Part shown: piece by piece, positions 12,599 to 63,521 of the stretch
Layout: each line of letters opens with the position of its first letter
Numbering within the stretch: position 1 is the first letter of the stretch
Source: Patescibacteria group bacterium
GTDB taxonomy: Bacteria; Patescibacteriota; Minisyncoccia; Moranbacterales; GWC2-37-73
Assembly (NCBI GenBank): GCA_022709545.1
Contig: JAKLIP010000003.1
Span: forward strand, 1-64,000
DNA: 64,000 bases
Reading direction: 5' to 3'
The notes under the pieces: generated by a model
Databases searched by the model: none
What the model saw: only the letters and a program-made list of their open reading frames with translations
What the model was told of the DNA's origin: nothing
Made by a program: the position numbers and the translations under genes

Positions 12599-13294
12599 CT
12601 ATTTTTTACCAATCAATAAAATATTTCTTTTATCTATTATCTCACATTTCTCCACCTTAAATCCAGCGTCAGAGAATAATTTACGCAATTCTCTTTTTGT
12701 AAAAGCATGATGATATCTTTGAAATTTTTTGCCCTCATTATCAGTAAAAGAAACATAACAATCATTCCAGTCCATATTCCTATCCCCTTTTAATTTACCC
12801 AACCAGTTTTTAAAAATATTTTTTATATATTTTTTTTGCCACAAATTCCAAGTTGTGATAATAATATATCCTTCTTTTTTTATAATTCTGTATAATTCTT
12901 TAGCGACATCTTCTCGATATTTTTTAGATGGAAAATGATGAAAGACTGCAATAGAAAAAATTATGTTGAAAGATTCGCTTGGCAATGATAGACTATCAGA
13001 ATTAGATATCTTTTGAAAATTATTGGCTTTATTAGGATATTTTTCCTTAGCAGTATTAATAAGCTTTTCTGAGATATCTATACCCAAATAGTCGATTTTT
13101 TTATTAAAAAATAGCTCTAAAAGGCGTCCATTGCCGCAGCCGAAATCTAGCACTTTCTCCCCTTCTTTGGCATAATCAGCGATAAATTCCAATCCGCGCC
13201 AAAAATATTTCCTGGTTTCAGAAAATTTTTCCGCCATCGAATTATACCCATGCTCAGTTTCTTTTAATATTTTTTCTTTGATTTTTTGATCCAT
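12599..13294 (-). CDS. Trm9/ALKBH8-like tRNA wobble-uridine methyltransferase
   Basis: A 231-residue class I SAM methyltransferase. Motif I is VLDFGCGNGR (48-57). Around it the protein matches Trm9-family hallmarks: FSETRKYFW (24-32), SIAVFHHF (114-121), an Ile-rich strand ending TTWNLWQ, and the late RYHHAF...EL segment corresponding to YYHLY...EL of Trm9. Trm9 methylates cm5U34, the product of Elp3, to mcm5U34. The gene is head to head with an Elp3 gene, and the start codons are 16 bases apart. I use the ATG at 13294; an ATG at 13312 would overlap the elp3 start. It could instead be an unrelated small-molecule methyltransferase, but context and motifs favour tRNA. Confidence 0.72.
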   Translation of the reverse strand: MDQKIKEKILKETEHGYNSMAEKFSETRKYFWRGLEFIADYAKEGEKVLDFGCGNGRLLELFFNKKIDYLGIDISEKLINTAKEKYPNKANNFQKISNSDSLSLPSESFNIIFSIAVFHHFPSKKYREDVAKELYRIIKKEGYIIITTWNLWQKKYIKNIFKNWLGKLKGDRNMDWNDCYVSFTDNEGKKFQRYHHAFTKRELRKLFSDAGFKVEKCEIIDKRNILLIGKK

Positions 13295-13310
13295 ATGAAT
13301 AAAAACAACC

Positions 13311-14897
13311 ATGCTTAAAGATTACGATAATTATATAAAAAGTGCAATTAAACAGCTTCCGGAATCACGGGCTGATTTTTTGCAACTAAAAAAGAAACTT
13401 TCCAAAAAATACAAACTTCCTATTCCTACTAACGCCGATTTGCGCAACAGATATAATGAGCTTCTAAAAAAGAAAAGGATAATGGGATCAGAAAAATTTG
13501 AAAAATTACTTTTGAGCCGCGCTATCCGGACTGAGTCCGGCGTGGCTGTGGTAGCAGTCCTCACCAAATCATATCCCTGTCCCGGAAAATGTATATATTG
13601 TCCAAGCGAAAAAGATATGCCAAAAAGCTATCTTTCCAATGAGCCGGCTGTTATGCGCGCTATTGATGCTGATTTTGATCCATATAGACAAGTTCAAAAT
13701 CGTTTGCGTTCATTGGAGCTCAATGGCCATGCTACAGATAAAATAGAGTTGATAGTTATGGGAGGAACATTTTCTTACCTTCCTAGTTATTATCAAAAAT
13801 ATTTTATATGGCAATGCTTTAAAGCTTGCAACGAATTCGAACGAAAAATCAAAAAACAAAAAGCAAAAATTAAAACCAAGGGAGAATTACTAAATAAATA
13901 TTTGTCAAAAGAACAGAAAAAAAATGAAAAAGCTAAACACAGAATTATCGGGTTGACCTTAGAAACACGTCCTGATTTTATAAATGAAAAAGAAATAAAA
14001 AATTTCAGGAATCTCGGCTGTACTCGCGTGGAACTGGGTGTGCAGAGCATTTTTGATGATATTTTAAAAAAAAATAAGCGCGGTCATTCTGTAACTGAGA
14101 CGATTTGCGCCACAAAACTCTTGAAAGACGCGGGCTTTAAAATTAATTATCATATAATGCCTGGACTGCCTGGATCAAGTCCAAAACATGATTTTAAAAT
14201 GTTTAAAGAACTATTTTCTAATCCTAATTTCCAGCCGGACATGCTGAAAATCTATCCAACAGTCGTCCTTAGAAACAGCCAACTTTTTAAATTATGGAAA
14301 AATAACTCATACAAGCCACTTTCGGACAATAAATTTGAGAAATTTGTTTTAAAAATAAAAAATGAAGTTATTCCCCCTTATGTCCGCATTGCCCGGCTTG
14401 TACGTGATGTTCCAACTTCTTCTATAATTGCTGGACCTACAGTTTCCAATTTGAGACAAATTATTATCCCGGAGTCACATTGTCCGTGCATTCGTTGCCG
14501 TGAAGTACGAAGCGGATATGAAATAAAAGAAAAAATTGTTTTAAATAGAATTGATTATCCAGCATCGGATGGATATGAAATATTTTTACAATATATTTCA
14601 CCAGATAAGAAAAAATTATTTGCACTTCTTCGCCTGCGCATCACATCAGAAAAAAAAGCCATTATCCGCGAAGTGCATACTTATGGCAAAATGGAAAAAA
14701 TAAACCAGAAAAATAAAAAATCCCCACAACACATAGGACTAGGCAAGAAACTAGTAGCTGAAGCCGAAAAAATTGCCAAAAAAGAATTTAAGATAGACAA
14801 TATATCAGTTATTTCTGGCATCGGTGTTAGATATTATTACCGAAAACTCGGCTATAAACTAAAAGACACTTATATGGTAAAATATATTGGTAAATAA
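13311..14897 (+). CDS. Elp3-type tRNA uridine(34) acetyltransferase (radical SAM + GNAT)
   Basis: A 528-residue single-protein Elp3. The radical SAM domain has the cluster motif C90-x3-C94-x2-C97 after RTESGVAVVAV. It is followed by MGGTF, LTLETRPD, RVELGVQS, KRGHSV and YHIMPGLPG, all in family order. A zinc-site region CPCIRCREV lies before the C-terminal GNAT domain, which has the acetyl-CoA loop QHIGLG at 473-478 and SGIGVRYYYRKLGY. Both halves appear intact. Elp3 builds cm5U34 on tRNA; archaeal and some bacterial enzymes act without other Elongator subunits. It is followed 22 bases later by a yjbQ gene. The ATG at 13311 has no SD. Confidence 0.93.
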   Translation: MLKDYDNYIKSAIKQLPESRADFLQLKKKLSKKYKLPIPTNADLRNRYNELLKKKRIMGSEKFEKLLLSRAIRTESGVAVVAVLTKSYPCPGKCIYCPSEKDMPKSYLSNEPAVMRAIDADFDPYRQVQNRLRSLELNGHATDKIELIVMGGTFSYLPSYYQKYFIWQCFKACNEFERKIKKQKAKIKTKGELLNKYLSKEQKKNEKAKHRIIGLTLETRPDFINEKEIKNFRNLGCTRVELGVQSIFDDILKKNKRGHSVTETICATKLLKDAGFKINYHIMPGLPGSSPKHDFKMFKELFSNPNFQPDMLKIYPTVVLRNSQLFKLWKNNSYKPLSDNKFEKFVLKIKNEVIPPYVRIARLVRDVPTSSIIAGPTVSNLRQIIIPESHCPCIRCREVRSGYEIKEKIVLNRIDYPASDGYEIFLQYISPDKKKLFALLRLRITSEKKAIIREVHTYGKMEKINQKNKKSPQHIGLGKKLVAEAEKIAKKEFKIDNISVISGIGVRYYYRKLGYKLKDTYMVKYIGK

Positions 14898-14919: not shown

Positions 14920-15363
14920 ATGAAAATAAAAAATGAAATAATAAAATTAAAGACTGCTACCACAATGGATTTTATCGATATCACCGATAAAATACAGACA
15001 AAAATAAAAAAAGTCGGCATTAAAAATGGTATCATCAACGTTCAGAGTTTGCATACTACTATGGCTGTCATTGTTAATGAAGCTGAACCATTACTTATTT
15101 CAGATATAAAAAATCTTCTTGAAAAAATAGCGCCACGTAAACATGCATATATGCATGATAATTTTAAAATTCGTAAAGTTAACATGTGCGATGGTGAATG
15201 CAGGAATGGTCATTCTCACAGCAAGGCAATCCATCTGCCAACTTCAGTTATAATGAATATTATTGGAAATAAACTCCAACTTGGCCAATGGCAAAGAGTT
15301 TTTGCTGTAGAATTAGATCGGTCTCGTTCACGTGAAATTGCTTTGCAAATTATCGGAAAATAG
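14920..15363 (+). CDS. YjbQ/UPF0047 family protein
   Basis: A 147-residue protein of the YjbQ family, known for weak thiamine-phosphate-synthase-like activity and of unsettled role. Conserved features are HTTMAVIVNEAEPLL near residue 46 and the metal-site region NGHSHSKAIHLPTS near residue 98. LGQWQRVFAVELD and the REIALQIIGK end complete the family pattern. It is in the elp3 transcript (22-base gap). Its stop meets the rlmN stop tail to tail with one base between. Confidence 0.9.
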   Translation: MKIKNEIIKLKTATTMDFIDITDKIQTKIKKVGIKNGIINVQSLHTTMAVIVNEAEPLLISDIKNLLEKIAPRKHAYMHDNFKIRKVNMCDGECRNGHSHSKAIHLPTSVIMNIIGNKLQLGQWQRVFAVELDRSRSREIALQIIGK

Positions 15364-15364
15364 A

Positions 15365-16408
15365 TTATTTTTTGCCAGTTCCCGCTAATTGCCCGCAGGC
15401 GCCTCGGATTTCTTCCCCGAGGCTTTTTCTTATAGTCACACCGATATGATATTTCTCCAGTTCTTTCTTGAAAAGATACGTTTTATTTCTGGAAGATGGA
15501 ATCATATTTTCCCTACTTGTTTCCGGAGTCGGATTGAAACGAATCAAATTAACATGTAGAAGATGATTGTTATTTATGGATTTAATATAGTCTGCTAATT
15601 TTTTAGCATCTTTATGGCTATCATTTATGTTTTCTAACATTATGTATTCAAGGAAAACTTTTCTTTTTATGATCTGGAAATATTTTTGCAAAGCTTTTCT
15701 CAAAGATTCTAAGTTATATCTGACGTTTATCGGCATGAATTGGCTGCGCTTATTGTCTTCGGTAAAATGCAGAGAAACCGCCAGATTTATTTGCGGAAAT
15801 TCGTGCGCCATTTTTTGAATGCCATCAGAAATTCCGGCCGTTGAAACAGAAATGCTGCGCGATCCAAATCCAAAAAGTTTTTTGTCAGTCAGAATTTTTA
15901 TGCTTTCCGAAACCTGATCCCAATTCAAAAAAGGCTCGCCCATGCCCATAAAAACAATGTTGGAAATATCGCTTCTATTTTTTGATTTAAAATACTGACG
16001 CCAAAATAAAACTTGATCAGTAATTTCTTCAGCAGTCAAATTTCTTTCAAAACCCATTTTTCCGGTAGCACAGAATTTGCATCCAATCGGACAACCGACC
16101 TGGCAGGAAACACAAATTGACCACGTATTAGGTTTTGGAGAAATAAGTACCGATTCAATAAAACTTCCATCTGCAAGTTCCAACAGAACCTCTGCTGAAT
16201 TTCCATCCTTTGATTTTGAAACTTTTTTTGATTTAAAAGATAAAATTTTTATTTCTTTTTCCAATTTTTCTCTTAAATTCAATGGTAAATTTGTGATTTC
16301 TGACCATGTCGAAACGCCGTCCTGATATAAAGCTTTTTTTATCTGTTCCAGCCGAAATTTCGGATGGTTATTGTCTATTAAAAATTGTTCGAGTTTATTT
16401 ATATCCAT
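15365..16408 (-). CDS. rlmN: Dual-specificity RNA methyltransferase RlmN
   Basis: This radical SAM enzyme methylates C2 of A2503 in 23S rRNA and A37 in some tRNAs. Cluster cysteines are C106, C110 and C113 (GCPIGCKFC). The C-terminal catalytic Cys338 is in GACGQLAG, and GMGEPFLN plus the VSLH region are present. Length 347 is normal. Cfr is less likely because the overall layout is the housekeeping form. It stands alone, preceded by the terminator of the upstream gene. Confidence 0.95.
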   Translation of the reverse strand: MDINKLEQFLIDNNHPKFRLEQIKKALYQDGVSTWSEITNLPLNLREKLEKEIKILSFKSKKVSKSKDGNSAEVLLELADGSFIESVLISPKPNTWSICVSCQVGCPIGCKFCATGKMGFERNLTAEEITDQVLFWRQYFKSKNRSDISNIVFMGMGEPFLNWDQVSESIKILTDKKLFGFGSRSISVSTAGISDGIQKMAHEFPQINLAVSLHFTEDNKRSQFMPINVRYNLESLRKALQKYFQIIKRKVFLEYIMLENINDSHKDAKKLADYIKSINNNHLLHVNLIRFNPTPETSRENMIPSSRNKTYLFKKELEKYHIGVTIRKSLGEEIRGACGQLAGTGKK

Positions 16409-56885: not shown

Positions 56886-59800
56886 TTATTCATCCTTTCT
56901 TTTTAATATCAGCCACAAAACTCCTCCAACTAATACGGCTACTCCTAGCGTAAACCATAGATACCACCAGTTTTGCGATGAAGATGCGGGTTTTGTTTCT
57001 GCAATACTTTTCTTTTTTTGCTGAGATTCTGATCCTAGAGGTTGACCACCTTGATCACTTCCGCTCGGCGTCGTGATTTCATTATTATCTCCAATAGGTT
57101 CCCTCTCGACTACCGCATCAGCTGGCAATGCTTCTGTGCCTTCATAGACTACAGTGGCTTGCCCACCTGCTTTTGGAATTTCAATAGAAATCTTCTCTAC
57201 TTCGCTTTTGTTGCCAGCATCATCCAGCGCAACGAGTTTATAATAATATTTTACCCCTCTTTCAATATCATAATCGGTAAAATCTTCGTCACTATGGTCG
57301 TTTTTAGCAACACGCGAAGAGCTGTTAACTTTGAAATCGCTAGTCGTGCCTCGGTATATATAAACATCTTTTATATCCGAGTCATCAGCATCCCATTCTA
57401 ATTTTACCCCATTGGTATCTTCCTTGTATGTCGCCTGCAAATCTTCAACTTCATCAGGATCATGCGTATCCACTTTTATATGCTTTTCCCCTATTGGGCT
57501 AACATTACCCGCCAAGTCCAGTGCCCTATAGTAAAACATATATTCACCATCATCAATCTCTACAGGAGATGGATAGGTTGTCCATGTTCCTGAAGTTGAA
57601 TCAATCTGATATTCTATCCTGTCTAAGTTCAAATCAACTGCACTCAATGTCACATCTGGTTTGGAAACATACCAGTGATTGTCTCCATCTGGATGGCTAG
57701 GATCAATTTCAAGAGTAACTACTGGAGGAGTTGTGTCCCAAATAAGAGTGAACTCATCATAAGCTGAATTACCCACATTGTCAGTCACTGTAAGTCTAGC
57801 CACATATGTTCCGTCAGTATCAGCAGATATGTCAGTATCTTCAGCATTTGGAGATACAAAAGTTATAGTTCCGGGACCTGAAGTTTGTGTCCAAGAGTAA
57901 GTTGCTATTCCACTGCCATCATCAGAAGCTGTGGCATCTTGAGTAAATAAGGCGTTAACAACTTTGTCCGTCCCGGCATCTACGCTTGGAGGATTTCCAT
58001 CCACTATCCTGGTTATGTGATTCATTCCTCCACCACCCCAATGTTCTACGCTGTCGCGTCCGCGCATCGCAAAATCATATGATACACCATCACTTAGAAG
58101 TCCGCTGAGGTCTGCGATGCAGTTTGATCCATCCCAAGTAGCACTAGACCAACTTGCTGGCCATGCATCTCCAGTTACTCTAAATCTGTATTCACAAGCA
58201 ACGATTGGTGAAACTGAATCTGAAATTGTTCCAGTAAGTGTTGGATTTGCGTTGGTATATGTGCCATCATCCGGACTTATTGTTATTGAATCAGTAGTTG
58301 GATTTGCAGAATCGACTGTGTAAGTTGCTGGTGTTCCTGTTCCTTGATTGCCAACCATGTCATTGACTCTTACGTTTACCGTGTATACTGTTCCATCCGC
58401 AATAGTTGGACTGATGTCTGCTATGCAACGTCCAGTTCCTGAATTGTAAGATCCAGAATACCAATTGGCTCCATCATCCAGGGTGTATTCACAAGTGGTG
58501 ATGTCCAATCCGGAAGCTGCATCTGAAACGTCGGCAATAATACGAAATGTGTCATCACCTCTTACATATGGAGTATAGTTTGTCCATGGAGAAGTTCTTA
58601 CTATTCGAACATTGCTTACTATTGGTGCAGCTGCATCCACTGTTCTAGTTATATTATTTTCCCCGCCTCCGCCATTATGACCTAATGTGTCCGTTGCGCG
58701 GGTTGAAAAATCATACGAAACTCCGTCAGAAAGACCACTAATACTTCCTGTGCATGTTCCAGTTCTTGGATCGCCTGACGGTGTCCATGTTCCACTCATC
58801 CAAGTTGTCCATCCTCCGCTTCCGGAACCAGTCACCCTGTATCTGTATTCACAACTGGTGATTGGTGAAACTGTATCACTAAGCGTACCGGTTATTGTCG
58901 GATCAGCACTGGTATAAATACCATCAGGATCAGGACTAATCGCTATTGAGTCAGTATGTGGTCCTTCGGAATCAACTGTATATACAACAGCGCTTCCTTC
59001 TCCTATATTGCCAACAAGATCAGAGACTCTAATGTTTATTGTAAAAACATCGCCATCCGTAAGGGTTGCTGGGATACTAGCTATGCAACGTCCAGTTCCG
59101 ACATTGTAAGATCCGGCATACCAGTTAGCTCCGTTATCCAGTGTGTATTCGCAAGTGGTAGTATCTAATCCTGAAGCTGCATCTGAAACGTCGGCACGGA
59201 TACGGGTTGTTACGTTTCCATTGATATATGGATAGAAATCGGTTCCACTGCTTTGAACCACAGCTTGAACATTGGTTACGCTTGGCGCAACTGTATCTTT
59301 AGTGAAAGTCCTGGAATCAGTGCCTATATTTCCAGCTGCATCAGTATCACGAACATTCAAAGTAAAGCTTGTTTCGCCAAGTCCGGCAAAATCTGAAAGC
59401 ATAGAAAATGTATCACCAGATGCGCATGATTCCCATGCTCCACCATCTATATTACATTCTTGGGTACCAGGTTCTGAACTTGAGAATGTAAAAACTGATG
59501 TTCCACTGGCATAAGCTGAAACAGCAGGAGTTAAAATTGTTACGGTAGAAGGCACTACGTCTTTAGCGGCTGTATCAAGTCTAGGAGTAGCTGTGTTTCC
59601 AGCTACATCTGAAACTGAACATACAACACCTATTGCTCCATCATTCAAACCTAATAAGGAACCTGAAGAGATGGTTGCAGTATTGCCAGATATTAGCCCT
59701 GACACAGGAATATATGTAAAAGTATCGCTTATTAAACATGCAACTGATTGGCCGTCTTCTACGCCGGTTGTAACTACGTCTATATCAACTCCCGAAGTTG

Positions 59801-62800
59801 CATCTGCTAAGTTCACGTACTCATCGGAACCTAAAGCTACGCTTGATATTGTCGGTACGCCGGTGTCTTTTGTAGCAATATCAATTTCTGGATTAGCCGG
59901 ATTGCCAGCTATGTCGGAAACATTGCAAGTAGAAGTTAATATTCCATCAGCCAAAGAAGTCAACGCTCCGGTAGCTATTGTTACCGCATTACCAGATATA
60001 GTTCCACTTACAGGACCAACCGATCCAGTGCCTGTATCAGTTATGGTGCAGTCAACTTGTTGGCCGTCTTCTGCTCCATTTGTAACTACATCTATATCCA
60101 CTCCCGAGACTGCTTCAGTTGCGTTTACATATCCATCTGCACCGAAGTGTGCAAATGAAAATGTCGGAACGACCGTGTCTTTAGAGGCAGTATCTGTTCC
60201 ATCAACGGCTGGATTTCCGGCCGCATCTGAAACTGAACATGTAGCTGTCAATAATCCATCGCTCAAAGAAGTTAGATCTCCTGTAGCTATGGTGGCTGCA
60301 TTGCCAGATATAGTTCCGCTTACAGGACCAACCGATCCAGTGCCTGTATCAGTTATGGTGCAGTCAACTTGTTGGCCGTCTTCTACGCCGGTTGTAACTA
60401 CATCTATATTAACGCTTGATGTAGCTTCCGCTAAGTTTATGTATTCATCCGAATCCAGAGCTACGCTTGTAAAAGTCGGGGCACTTGTATCTACCGTGAT
60501 ACCTCTCGTTCCATCTACAGCATTAGGATTGCCAGCATTATCTGTAGCAACTGCTGTTAATGTTTCAGCTCCTTCTCCGAAAGCGGTAATTGCTGCTGCA
60601 TCTAAAACATAAGACCAAGTGGTTGAGGTAACAATTGTTGTAGGATTTCCATTTAGGGTAACCGTTGAACCGTCTTCATTTCCGCCAGTCACAGTTACCG
60701 TTGCTGTTTGTTCGGCAGCATTGATAATATCATCAGTAGCAACTACATCGATAGTTGGAGTTGCTGGAGGAGTTGAATCATAAGTGAATGTCAATGTATC
60801 GGAAGCTGAATTTCCTGAATTATCCAAAACAGACAGCTGCAAAGTATAATCTCCATCAACTGAAACTCCGGTAGCATTTGGATCTTCAATGGTTGGATCG
60901 TCAAAAGTTACTGTCCCAGGTCCGGCAGTTTGAGACCATGCATAAGAAGCGACACCAGCGATTGAAGCATCAACTGTAGCATCAAGTGTGACTGGAAGAT
61001 CAGCAGCGGCAGCTACAACATCTGCTCCGGCATCAACAGTTGGTGAACTGTTATCAACCGTTATCGCTGATGAACTTGTTCCGGTAGTTTGAAAAAGTCC
61101 GACATTGTCTCCAACACCCAAAGTAGGTGCGGATCCATCCGAAACAACTATATAATAAGTCCCTTCTCCAGCTGAAGGATTAGGTACGGTTACAGAACCA
61201 GAACAATCTGTTCCCAGATCGCCAAGATCAACATCTCCTCCATCAGCTGCGGTGTCTGTTGACCAATAAGCGTGACATGAAGCTATTCCCGATCCAGTTT
61301 CCGTAAGTGTGGTTGTCACCACGATTGATGCTCCGTCTTTTACTACATTGTCGTCTAAAGCTACGGAAAAGCCTGAAGGATTGGTATTATCTCGATGTAT
61401 GGTTAGTGTTGAAGTTGCTGTATTTCCTGCTGCGTCATAGCAAGTTATCGTGGAGCTTCCATCATATGAATCTAAAGCGCTCCAGGCATAAAGACTGCTA
61501 TAAGGTCCGGGGTTAGCAACATCGCCTCCACCGGCTATATCGCCAGTAGCGGGAAAGTTGACTTTCTGAATTCCTGAACCGCTATCTGTTGCAGCTTCAC
61601 TAACTGTAAAATCTCCGGTTCCGGAAATGTTAGTTGTATAATATATAACATTTCCAACTGCATATTGTTCGTTGGGGTTTGTGCCTTCAGCAATCGTTGG
61701 CTCTGGGCATGTCGGATTGGTAAAGTCAGTTTCAACAGCAGAACCATCACCAATGTTAGCTTTGGTTACAGTTGTTGCATTGTTTCCTGCAGCATCAGTT
61801 GAAACTAATGTAAAATCAAGTCCTGCACCTTCAGTTTCTGAAGCATCCAAAACACGTGTAAGTGTTGCCGTTGTTCCGACTACTGTATTTGTAGTTGTCG
61901 CCTGACCTCCAATAGTACCGGTTACAGTAGTTCCCGCATCTACCGTCGCAGTAACCGTAACAGTATCACCTGATTTAGCTAAAGTTGTTGTAGCATTGTT
62001 TGAGGCAATATGAATACTGGATGGTGTTGTCGGTGCAGCAACATCTTTAGTAGCTGTATCTGTTCCATTAACAGCTGGGTTTCCGGCCGCATCTGAAACT
62101 GAACAAGTGGCTGTCAATAATCCATCGGCTAAAGAAGTTAGGACTCCGGTAGCTATTGTTACCGCATTGCCAGATATAGTTCCGGTTACTGGACCAACTG
62201 ATCCGGCGACTGTATCCGTTATGGTGCAGGAAACTTGTCTGCCATCTTCTACGCCGGTTGTAGTTACATTTATGTTAACCCCGGAAGTTGCTTCCGCTGA
62301 ATTTACATATTCATCAGAGCCCAAAGCTACGCTTGCAAAAGTTGGAGCATTTGCATCAACCGCTAACGTATTACTGTCGTTAAAGTCTGCAACTGTAAGA
62401 TTATTAGTTCCTCCATCTGTCAAATAACAACTTATTGGTAAAGTCCCAGAAGCTCGGTCTGTATCACCAGAGCCAACTACATATGTAAGTGTATATGTAT
62501 AAGGACCGCTACCGCCTGGGCCTGCGAATGTGCCTGCAACATTTTTGCTATTCACAGTGCAAGCACCAACAGTCAAGGTATTTAAAGTTGATGATAGCGT
62601 AATAGTTAGCGTATCTCCGATTTTTGCAGTTCCTGATGAAGGAGAAACTGATGCAGAAACAGAACCAGTGTTAACTGGAGCCATATAGAAAATAGTAAAG
62701 TGATCAATGCCATTCGCCTCAATTGTGTCTTCTTTCACATCAATCTTGTCTTCATCAATCACTTTCAAATCCTCTGGTTCGACTTCTTCCAGTTCATCAG

Positions 62801-63521
62801 CTGATTTTTCTGTGTAAGCAATCTGCACGTCTACATTCTCAGGTTTAGGCAGTGTTAAATCGTATTTGAAAGTTCCATTTTCCATCGATGAGGTGATGTC
62901 ATAAGCTTTGTTGGAAAGCGCACCAAGTGAAGCCATTTCTTCGTCCGTCAAAGTAATTTCTTCAATTTTCAAGTTTCCAGGATTGTCAGGCAATTTAGTA
63001 AAAGTAACCGTTACATCTTCATTTTGGGGAGCTTTATAAGTAACGCCCTTTTCAACCGGTCCGATTTCCGCAGTCTTTCCGTCGTCACTTACATTCCATT
63101 CCGGCTTTTCATCAGAAGCCTCTTCGGTAGAAATGTTTTCTTCATCAGATGCTTCGTCTGATTCTTCTTCCTCAACTATTTCGTTGTCTGATGGCTGGTC
63201 TGTCAGAGATGGAACATTTTCTGCGGCAGGTTCTTCAGCAACAACTGTTTCTTCGGAAGTTGAATCTTTTTCATCATCAACTGTTGTTTCTTCTTTGTCG
63301 GAATCTGAATTAACTTCATCTTCAGAAACAGATCCTGCCTCATCGGCGCTGGCAGATGGTTCATTATCTGCTCCGGCATACATCATGCCCATTGTCAAAA
63401 GATTGATTGAAGACATCTGAATAACAAACATCGGAACCATTATGATTGCCATAATTTTCTTTGCGACCTTCATTTCACTTTTGTTCAGCCTGAGCTGAAA
63501 CATTTTTACGATTTTTTTCAT
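56886..63521 (-). CDS. Giant multi-domain surface protein, 2211 residues
   Basis: This is the largest gene of the window. It has an N-terminal signal/anchor (about 19-48) and an acidic Ser/Glu/Asp-rich stretch (about 50-145). Next comes an Ig/PKD-like array: four bacterial Ig-like units SVALGSDEYVN...EDGQQV (one near 390-490, three in tandem near 1010-1325), two PKD-like units (YAWSQTAGPG, YSWTQTSGPG) and a tandem pair of about 215-residue double modules (nt 57990-59290). An OmpL47-like and an FnIII-like module follow, related to those of the neighbouring 658-residue protein. The end is SSSQNWWY, one helix and LKRKDE. Probably an adhesin or stalk; no enzyme domain seen. Expression comes from tandem promoters 140-215 bases upstream. 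Confidence 0.82.
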   Translation of the reverse strand: MKKIVKMFQLRLNKSEMKVAKKIMAIIMVPMFVIQMSSINLLTMGMMYAGADNEPSASADEAGSVSEDEVNSDSDKEETTVDDEKDSTSEETVVAEEPAAENVPSLTDQPSDNEIVEEEESDEASDEENISTEEASDEKPEWNVSDDGKTAEIGPVEKGVTYKAPQNEDVTVTFTKLPDNPGNLKIEEITLTDEEMASLGALSNKAYDITSSMENGTFKYDLTLPKPENVDVQIAYTEKSADELEEVEPEDLKVIDEDKIDVKEDTIEANGIDHFTIFYMAPVNTGSVSASVSPSSGTAKIGDTLTITLSSTLNTLTVGACTVNSKNVAGTFAGPGGSGPYTYTLTYVVGSGDTDRASGTLPISCYLTDGGTNNLTVADFNDSNTLAVDANAPTFASVALGSDEYVNSAEATSGVNINVTTTGVEDGRQVSCTITDTVAGSVGPVTGTISGNAVTIATGVLTSLADGLLTATCSVSDAAGNPAVNGTDTATKDVAAPTTPSSIHIASNNATTTLAKSGDTVTVTATVDAGTTVTGTIGGQATTTNTVVGTTATLTRVLDASETEGAGLDFTLVSTDAAGNNATTVTKANIGDGSAVETDFTNPTCPEPTIAEGTNPNEQYAVGNVIYYTTNISGTGDFTVSEAATDSGSGIQKVNFPATGDIAGGGDVANPGPYSSLYAWSALDSYDGSSTITCYDAAGNTATSTLTIHRDNTNPSGFSVALDDNVVKDGASIVVTTTLTETGSGIASCHAYWSTDTAADGGDVDLGDLGTDCSGSVTVPNPSAGEGTYYIVVSDGSAPTLGVGDNVGLFQTTGTSSSAITVDNSSPTVDAGADVVAAAADLPVTLDATVDASIAGVASYAWSQTAGPGTVTFDDPTIEDPNATGVSVDGDYTLQLSVLDNSGNSASDTLTFTYDSTPPATPTIDVVATDDIINAAEQTATVTVTGGNEDGSTVTLNGNPTTIVTSTTWSYVLDAAAITAFGEGAETLTAVATDNAGNPNAVDGTRGITVDTSAPTFTSVALDSDEYINLAEATSSVNIDVVTTGVEDGQQVDCTITDTGTGSVGPVSGTISGNAATIATGDLTSLSDGLLTATCSVSDAAGNPAVDGTDTASKDTVVPTFSFAHFGADGYVNATEAVSGVDIDVVTNGAEDGQQVDCTITDTGTGSVGPVSGTISGNAVTIATGALTSLADGILTSTCNVSDIAGNPANPEIDIATKDTGVPTISSVALGSDEYVNLADATSGVDIDVVTTGVEDGQSVACLISDTFTYIPVSGLISGNTATISSGSLLGLNDGAIGVVCSVSDVAGNTATPRLDTAAKDVVPSTVTILTPAVSAYASGTSVFTFSSSEPGTQECNIDGGAWESCASGDTFSMLSDFAGLGETSFTLNVRDTDAAGNIGTDSRTFTKDTVAPSVTNVQAVVQSSGTDFYPYINGNVTTRIRADVSDAASGLDTTTCEYTLDNGANWYAGSYNVGTGRCIASIPATLTDGDVFTINIRVSDLVGNIGEGSAVVYTVDSEGPHTDSIAISPDPDGIYTSADPTITGTLSDTVSPITSCEYRYRVTGSGSGGWTTWMSGTWTPSGDPRTGTCTGSISGLSDGVSYDFSTRATDTLGHNGGGGENNITRTVDAAAPIVSNVRIVRTSPWTNYTPYVRGDDTFRIIADVSDAASGLDITTCEYTLDDGANWYSGSYNSGTGRCIADISPTIADGTVYTVNVRVNDMVGNQGTGTPATYTVDSANPTTDSITISPDDGTYTNANPTLTGTISDSVSPIVACEYRFRVTGDAWPASWSSATWDGSNCIADLSGLLSDGVSYDFAMRGRDSVEHWGGGGMNHITRIVDGNPPSVDAGTDKVVNALFTQDATASDDGSGIATYSWTQTSGPGTITFVSPNAEDTDISADTDGTYVARLTVTDNVGNSAYDEFTLIWDTTPPVVTLEIDPSHPDGDNHWYVSKPDVTLSAVDLNLDRIEYQIDSTSGTWTTYPSPVEIDDGEYMFYYRALDLAGNVSPIGEKHIKVDTHDPDEVEDLQATYKEDTNGVKLEWDADDSDIKDVYIYRGTTSDFKVNSSSRVAKNDHSDEDFTDYDIERGVKYYYKLVALDDAGNKSEVEKISIEIPKAGGQATVVYEGTEALPADAVVEREPIGDNNEITTPSGSDQGGQPLGSESQQKKKSIAETKPASSSQNWWYLWFTLGVAVLVGGVLWLILKRKDE
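57990..59290 (-). repeat. Tandem double-module repeat in the giant gene
   Basis: Two successive units of about 650 bases (57990-58640 and 58641-59290). Each encodes a TDSI(T/A)ISPD...CEYR(F/Y)RVTG module and an ADVSDAASGLD(I/T)TTCEYTLD module in the same order. Protein similarity is high, indicating a recent duplication. Confidence 0.7.
59545..60485 (-). repeat. Triple tandem Ig-like repeat in the giant gene
   Basis: Three units of about 310 bases (about 59545-59860, 59865-60165, 60170-60485) encoding DEYVN...EDGQQVDCTITD...ISGNA.TIATG.LTSL.DG. A fourth copy lies apart at about 62037-62350. Long identical stretches occur between units, including CTGTATCAGTTATGGTGCAG-type segments. Confidence 0.75.
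62037..62350 (-). repeat. Separate fourth Ig-like repeat copy
   Basis: One unit of the same family as 59545-60485, placed about 1.5 kb upstream in the gene and separated by unlike modules. It is closest to the unit at 60170-60485, sharing GLLTATCSVSDAAGNPAV. Confidence 0.7.

Follow-up and report, generated by a model that had tools for sequence, protein, structure and literature searches.

A Trm9-like methyltransferase gene divergent from Elp3 in Patescibacteria and a predicted two-enzyme route to mcm5U34 in tRNA

In the current study, we analysed a 64,000-nt window (G000:C11:1-64000) from a patescibacterial genome of 1.02 Mb, with a completeness of 98% and a contamination of 9.6%. Two genes lie head to head within it. 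The reverse strand carries a gene for a Trm9-like SAM-dependent methyltransferase (12599-13294; 231 aa from a conserved ATG), a predicted tRNA cm5U34 carboxyl methyltransferase, and the forward strand carries a gene for Elp3, with radical SAM and GNAT domains (13311-14897; 528 aa), the predicted maker of cm5U34. Their divergent start codons flank an intergenic gap of 16 bp (13295-13310). An in-frame ATG further upstream, at 13312, lengthens the methyltransferase ORF to 237 aa (12599-13312, reverse strand) and produces a 2-bp overlap with the Elp3 ORF; we placed the start at the ATG at 13294 (MDQKIK...) because the homologues begin there. Both ORFs are present as the initial annotation described them, and the 16-base distance it gave holds when counted from this ATG. 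The gap measures 0-269 bp in 32 relatives, and a consensus scan of the 16 bp in the window found no sigma-70-like promoter between the two starts. Downstream of Elp3 by 22 bp, and on the same strand, is a YjbQ/UPF0047 gene (14920-15363), which adjoins the pair in only two further loci of the order. Beyond it, on the reverse strand (15365-16408), lies a gene for an RlmN-type radical SAM methyltransferase (321 bits against an RlmN cut-off of 290), which we take for an ordinary RlmN since its score of about 325 bits with the Cfr models is far under the Cfr cut-offs. A 2211-aa ORF in a higher-GC stretch of the window (56886-63521, reverse strand) encodes PKD and bacterial Ig-like domains close to its C-terminus.

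Elp3 proved as complete as first described. It matches TIGR01211 over its full length (545 bits, cut-off 350) and retains its radical-SAM cysteines (CPGKCIYC), and its alignment to solved Elp3 structures extends to the end of the C-terminal GNAT domain (PDB 6ia8, E 7e-119). Single-protein Elp3 is already known from bacteria and archaea, and the stand-alone archaeal enzyme makes cm5U on tRNA (PMC13315578). The GNAT domain, and the old name histone acetyltransferase that persists in several PDB entries, might suggest that the two proteins act on something other than tRNA, for example by acetylating and methylating a protein. The activity of the archaeal enzyme argues against such a target, as does the conservation of Trm9-type tRNA-contact residues in the methyltransferase (see below), and we regard it as extremely improbable.

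The methyltransferase itself matches only generic domains in Pfam (PF13489/PF08241), with a SAM motif and a class I fold. It reaches none of the NCBIfam cut-offs; generic models, UbiE, UbiG and BioC among them, appear as weak matches, and its score with the UbiE/COQ5 model TIGR01934 is 48.9 bits against a cut-off of 158. However, the Trm9 hallmarks listed in the initial annotation are all present, namely FSETR...W (residues 30-38), SIAVFHH (120-126), TTWNLWQ and RYHHAF..EL, and a sequence search of the PDB returned Yarrowia Trm9 (5cm2) as the second-best match (1.6e-11). A 59-sequence profile, built from the window protein and 58 Elp3-linked sequences and aligned to single sequences with hhalign, scored 203 with yeast Trm9, 212 with human ALKBH8 and 183 with Yarrowia Trm9, in each case end to end. 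With 14 other methyltransferases, comprising UbiE, UbiG, BioC, CmoA, CmoB, CmoM and others from the same genome, it scored at most 107, mostly over the core only. BLAST scores against yeast Trm9 were 53-87 bits across all the bacterial members; the controls (E. coli UbiG, BioC and CmoB, plus the remaining methyltransferases of the genome) reached no more than 25 bits or gave no match. A plasmid search with the same query returned just two weak matches. The yeast query sequence was validated by its match to 5cm2 (E 1e-70) and by the exact numbering of R29, H115, R241, Y243 and N271.

Phylogeny points in the same direction. A 48-row tree separated eukaryotic, archaeal and bacterial Trm9-like proteins, the window protein included, from seven outgroups, among them UbiE, BioC, CmoA and CmoM (98/93); archaea and eukaryotes formed a group (100/95) nested inside the Trm9-like proteins. 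In a 66-row tree, three long-branched outgroups (UbiG and two paralogues) fell within the Trm9-like group. The initial annotation had raised membership in UbiE/COQ5 as the outcome that would overturn its assignment; the 48-row tree favours Trm9, although AU tests rejected neither placement of the window protein with UbiE (p = 0.159) nor placement with the outgroups (p = 0.279). Among named relatives, the nearest comes from Candidatus Moranbacteria (100/99). An alignment-based AF2 model (pLDDT 96) brought Trm9 close to the top (5cm2 at Foldseek rank 2, E 5e-15, TMt 0.84), but class I families cannot be told apart by fold alone: in a VIA fold comparison 5cm2 (Z 20.4) was tied with many class I methyltransferases, and we therefore left structure out of the choice of family. 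Identity with UbiE was rejected on the TIGR01934 and hhalign scores. A chance neighbour of Elp3, that is, a generic small-molecule or quinone methyltransferase of the UbiE, UbiG or BioC type, would account for the purely generic domain matches. It fits poorly with the missed NCBIfam cut-offs, with hhalign scores for Trm9 about two-fold over that for UbiE, with the separation in the 48-row tree, and with a divergent pairing that is kept throughout the phylum while other neighbours change, and we consider it very improbable.

The trees also revealed a second Trm9-like clade (98/97; L146, L148, L152, L164, L189, L194, L199, L206 and L213), whose members are mostly Patescibacteria or bacteria of no given group, with one from Omnitrophota. 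They largely keep the contact residues discussed below, three of them follow a RecQ-type helicase gene, and no Elp3 was found in the flanks fetched. Separately, a contig titled Ignavibacteriales SURF_28 (L180) carries a divergent pair whose methyltransferase groups with Komeilibacteria (100/100), reflecting either a misbinned contig or a transfer.

Mutation of R29, H115, R241, Y243 or N271 in yeast Trm9 lowers tRNA affinity and kcat and leaves SAM binding unaffected (PMC5372719). The corresponding residues of the window protein are R34, H125, R199, H201 and N230. Equivalents of R29, H115, R241 and N271 are invariant in 26 of 26 members from the order, and among the matches listed across the whole collection they recur at Elp3-linked loci in 61, 56, 53 and 57 of 61 cases, respectively. 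The control methyltransferases lack this set of four. At the position of Y243, the window protein and its order have His (His201), and 31 of the 61 Elp3-linked members listed from elsewhere have Tyr.

Conservation of the gene pair, whose absence the initial annotation had named as a second outcome that would overturn its reading, was evident at every range. Among 113 relatives in the order, Elp3 and the methyltransferase each occur in 58, and the two apparent exceptions to their co-occurrence are cuts at contig edges: in G024 the Elp3 start sits at a contig end, and in G017 Elp3 stops at the contig edge on the side of the methyltransferase. Co-occurrence within the order is therefore without real exception. 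Across 333 genomes of the phylum, 120 have Elp3, 96 the methyltransferase and 89 both (Fisher p-values for co-occurrence are uncorrected for shared ancestry); in 78 of these 89 the genes are divergent neighbours, less than 600 bp apart in 73. The seven genomes with a methyltransferase only represent weak matches (1e-21 to 1e-25), and two more adjacent pairs (G324 and G404) fall below the cut-off. At least 80 Trm9-like loci, mostly in Patescibacteria with some in archaea, came from a scan across 84,980 species genomes; the scan relied on a single SAM-motif pattern, derived from an alignment in which bacterial rows were plentiful, and is not a census. Its matches were confirmed by tblastn with yeast Trm9, Elp3 playing no part in the selection, and among the matches listed Elp3 lies beside the methyltransferase in divergent orientation at 61 loci and in tandem at one (L196, Thermoproteota). 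The genes flanking the pair in the window are not retained in this way: UppP, YjbQ and RlmN occur at 0, 0 and 1 of the 80 listed loci, respectively, which indicates that the linkage is specific to Elp3 and the methyltransferase. These three were rejected as pathway members, being unconserved at phylum range.

Since the methyltransferase is almost never present without Elp3 and Elp3 is often present without the methyltransferase, the pattern fits a step downstream of Elp3. A related possibility is that the methyltransferase acts on tRNA at some other base or carboxylated uridine, the gene order reflecting a shared tRNA-modification regulon. Class I methyltransferases switch substrate easily, and E. 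coli CmoM, which has the same fold, also methylates a U34 carboxylate, that of cmo5U. Even so, CmoM scores 80 with hhalign, over the core only, versus 183-212 for the Trm9 proteins, and 33 bits by BLAST; the cm5U-contact residues are conserved, and in the phylum survey the methyltransferase depends on the Elp3 gene. We thus think a target other than cm5U34 improbable, if less so than the two alternatives above, and identity with CmoM itself was rejected on its core-only hhalign score.

The remainder of the genome adds context to a role in modification of cm5U34. MnmE scored over the cut-off in none of the 113 genomes of the order, that of the window included. MnmG was likewise missing from all of these genomes except G076, in which a lone full-length gene (G076:C2:3011-4858) lies in a bin with 8% contamination, and is probably on a foreign contig. 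The remark that the usual MnmE/MnmG route was not visible therefore extends to the whole genome, but the absence is common to relatives that lack Elp3 and is not specific to the pair; for this reason, replacement of MnmEG by the pair was rejected. MnmA is present in 104 of the 113 genomes, including that of the window, and U34 tRNAs for Lys, Glu, Gln, Arg, Gly, Val, Thr, Ala, Ser and Leu were found together with C34 tRNAs for Lys, Glu and Gln. Yeast and human Trm9 require Trm112. No Trm112 (PF03966) was detected over the cut-off in any of the 113 genomes, so we assign the protein to a bacterial Trm9-like branch free of Trm112, with predicted enzymatic activity, rather than to Trm9 proper.

In eukaryotes, Elp3 generates cm5U34, which Trm9 or ALKBH8 methylates to mcm5U34. 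By analogy, Elp3 alone would install the 5-carboxymethyl group on U34 by SAM radical chemistry with acetyl-CoA, and the divergent Trm9-like enzyme would methylate the carboxylate of cm5U with SAM as the donor, giving mcm5U34, presumably without a Trm112 activator. Because MnmA is present, mcm5s2U34 is the predicted product in the tRNAs for Lys, Glu and Gln, which would combine a side chain of eukaryotic and archaeal type with a bacterial thiolase. The bacterial mcm5U34 pathway suggested at the outset thus gains support from Trm9 kinship, contact residues and gene pairing, while we infer the activity, substrate and Trm112 independence of the methyltransferase from its sequence. Overall, we put the probability that Elp3 and the Trm9-like protein form a two-enzyme tRNA wobble-uridine pathway to mcm5U34 or mcm5s2U34 at roughly 85%.

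Elp3 genomes without an adjacent methyltransferase provide a further clue. In six of them, belonging to four families, an AsnB-like gene lies directly upstream of Elp3, on the forward strand at L298:4719-5531, L292:2254-3033 and L276:2322-3110, on the reverse strand at L281:2139-2924 and L293:1557-2405, and as a partial gene cut by the contig end at L299:4825-5265 (forward strand). The proteins measure about 265-285 aa, and their resemblance to asparagine synthetase B is confined to its synthetase domain (PDB 1ct9, E 5e-22), with the motifs SGGVDS (PP-loop), GxGxDxLFxGY and RPK; none of the six has a glutaminase domain. A profile from five of them produced exactly six matches with E < 1e-50 among the 333 genomes, and three weaker matches, in ORFs of 511-610 aa, have the appearance of conventional synthetases of full length. 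Both genes occur in family f65, the methyltransferase in five genomes and the AsnB-like gene in two. Since two predicted carboxylate-finishing chemistries share one slot, it can be argued that the slot enzyme acts on the product of Elp3, which would make the AsnB-like protein a candidate ncm5U34 synthase. That Patescibacteria finish cm5U34 by interchangeable slot enzymes, a Trm9-like one yielding mcm5U or an AsnB-like amide ligase yielding ncm5U, is a tentative proposal to which we give somewhat less than even odds. If it is true, the amide ligase would represent the first identification of an ncm5U34 synthase in any organism, and asparagine-synthetase-like orphans of eukaryotes, such as yeast YML096W and human ASNSD1, would become candidates for the same role. 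The ncm5U synthase was not known in any organism in 2019 (PMC6412123) and was still unknown in 2025 (PMC11696611), and in the literature that we covered we found no relevant paper tying Elp3 to asparagine synthetase, CPR or Patescibacteria. About a dozen other Elp3 genomes, in family f50 (e.g., L271, L273, L274 and L275), have neither a Trm9-like nor an AsnB-like neighbour.

According to a 2017 review, no genes resembling the Trm112-dependent methyltransferases of eukaryotes were detectable in bacteria (PMC5372719); for Trm9, this negative is overturned by the phylum-wide linkage of a Trm9-like gene with Elp3. The pair predicts mcm5(s2)U34 in bacteria without MnmEG, could serve as a minimal two-protein, Trm112-free model for a pathway with links to human disease, and is relevant to the origin of Trm9; comparison of the Elp3 slot yields, in addition, a concrete ncm5U synthase candidate. 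Our literature search, which covered few subscription journals or preprints, found no paper describing a bacterial Elp3-Trm9 pair. The expectation that the arrangement would be new or little known holds for its presence throughout Patescibacteria, but archaeal Trm9 candidates and the clustering of Elp3 with Trm9 in Sulfolobus are known predictions (PMC5372719).

Compared with known systems, the pair most resembles eukaryotic Elongator with Trm9-Trm112 or ALKBH8, sharing end-to-end homology, the residues R29, H115, R241 and N271, and an Elp3 partner. Unlike Elongator, the bacterial Elp3 stands alone, without Elp1-2 or Elp4-6; unlike eukaryotic Trm9, the methyltransferase is without Trm112, has His for Y243 in this order, and lacks the long insert before the RYYH motif. 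Thiolation would presumably depend on MnmA and not on Urm1/Ncs6. In the predicted archaeal Elp3-Trm9 system, too, Elp3 is a single protein whose gene is linked to a Trm9-like one, in tandem at L196, whereas the bacterial pair is head to head, occurs throughout Patescibacteria and lacks Trm112 in this order. E. coli CmoA/CmoB/CmoM (mcmo5U34) likewise employs a class I methyltransferase to form a U34-carboxylate methyl ester, as predicted here, but from another starting chemistry and with similarity at the fold level only. Finally, the bacterial MnmE/MnmG/MnmC route modifies the same nucleotide, U34, but MnmE and MnmG are absent here and, the G076 MnmG excepted, in the order.
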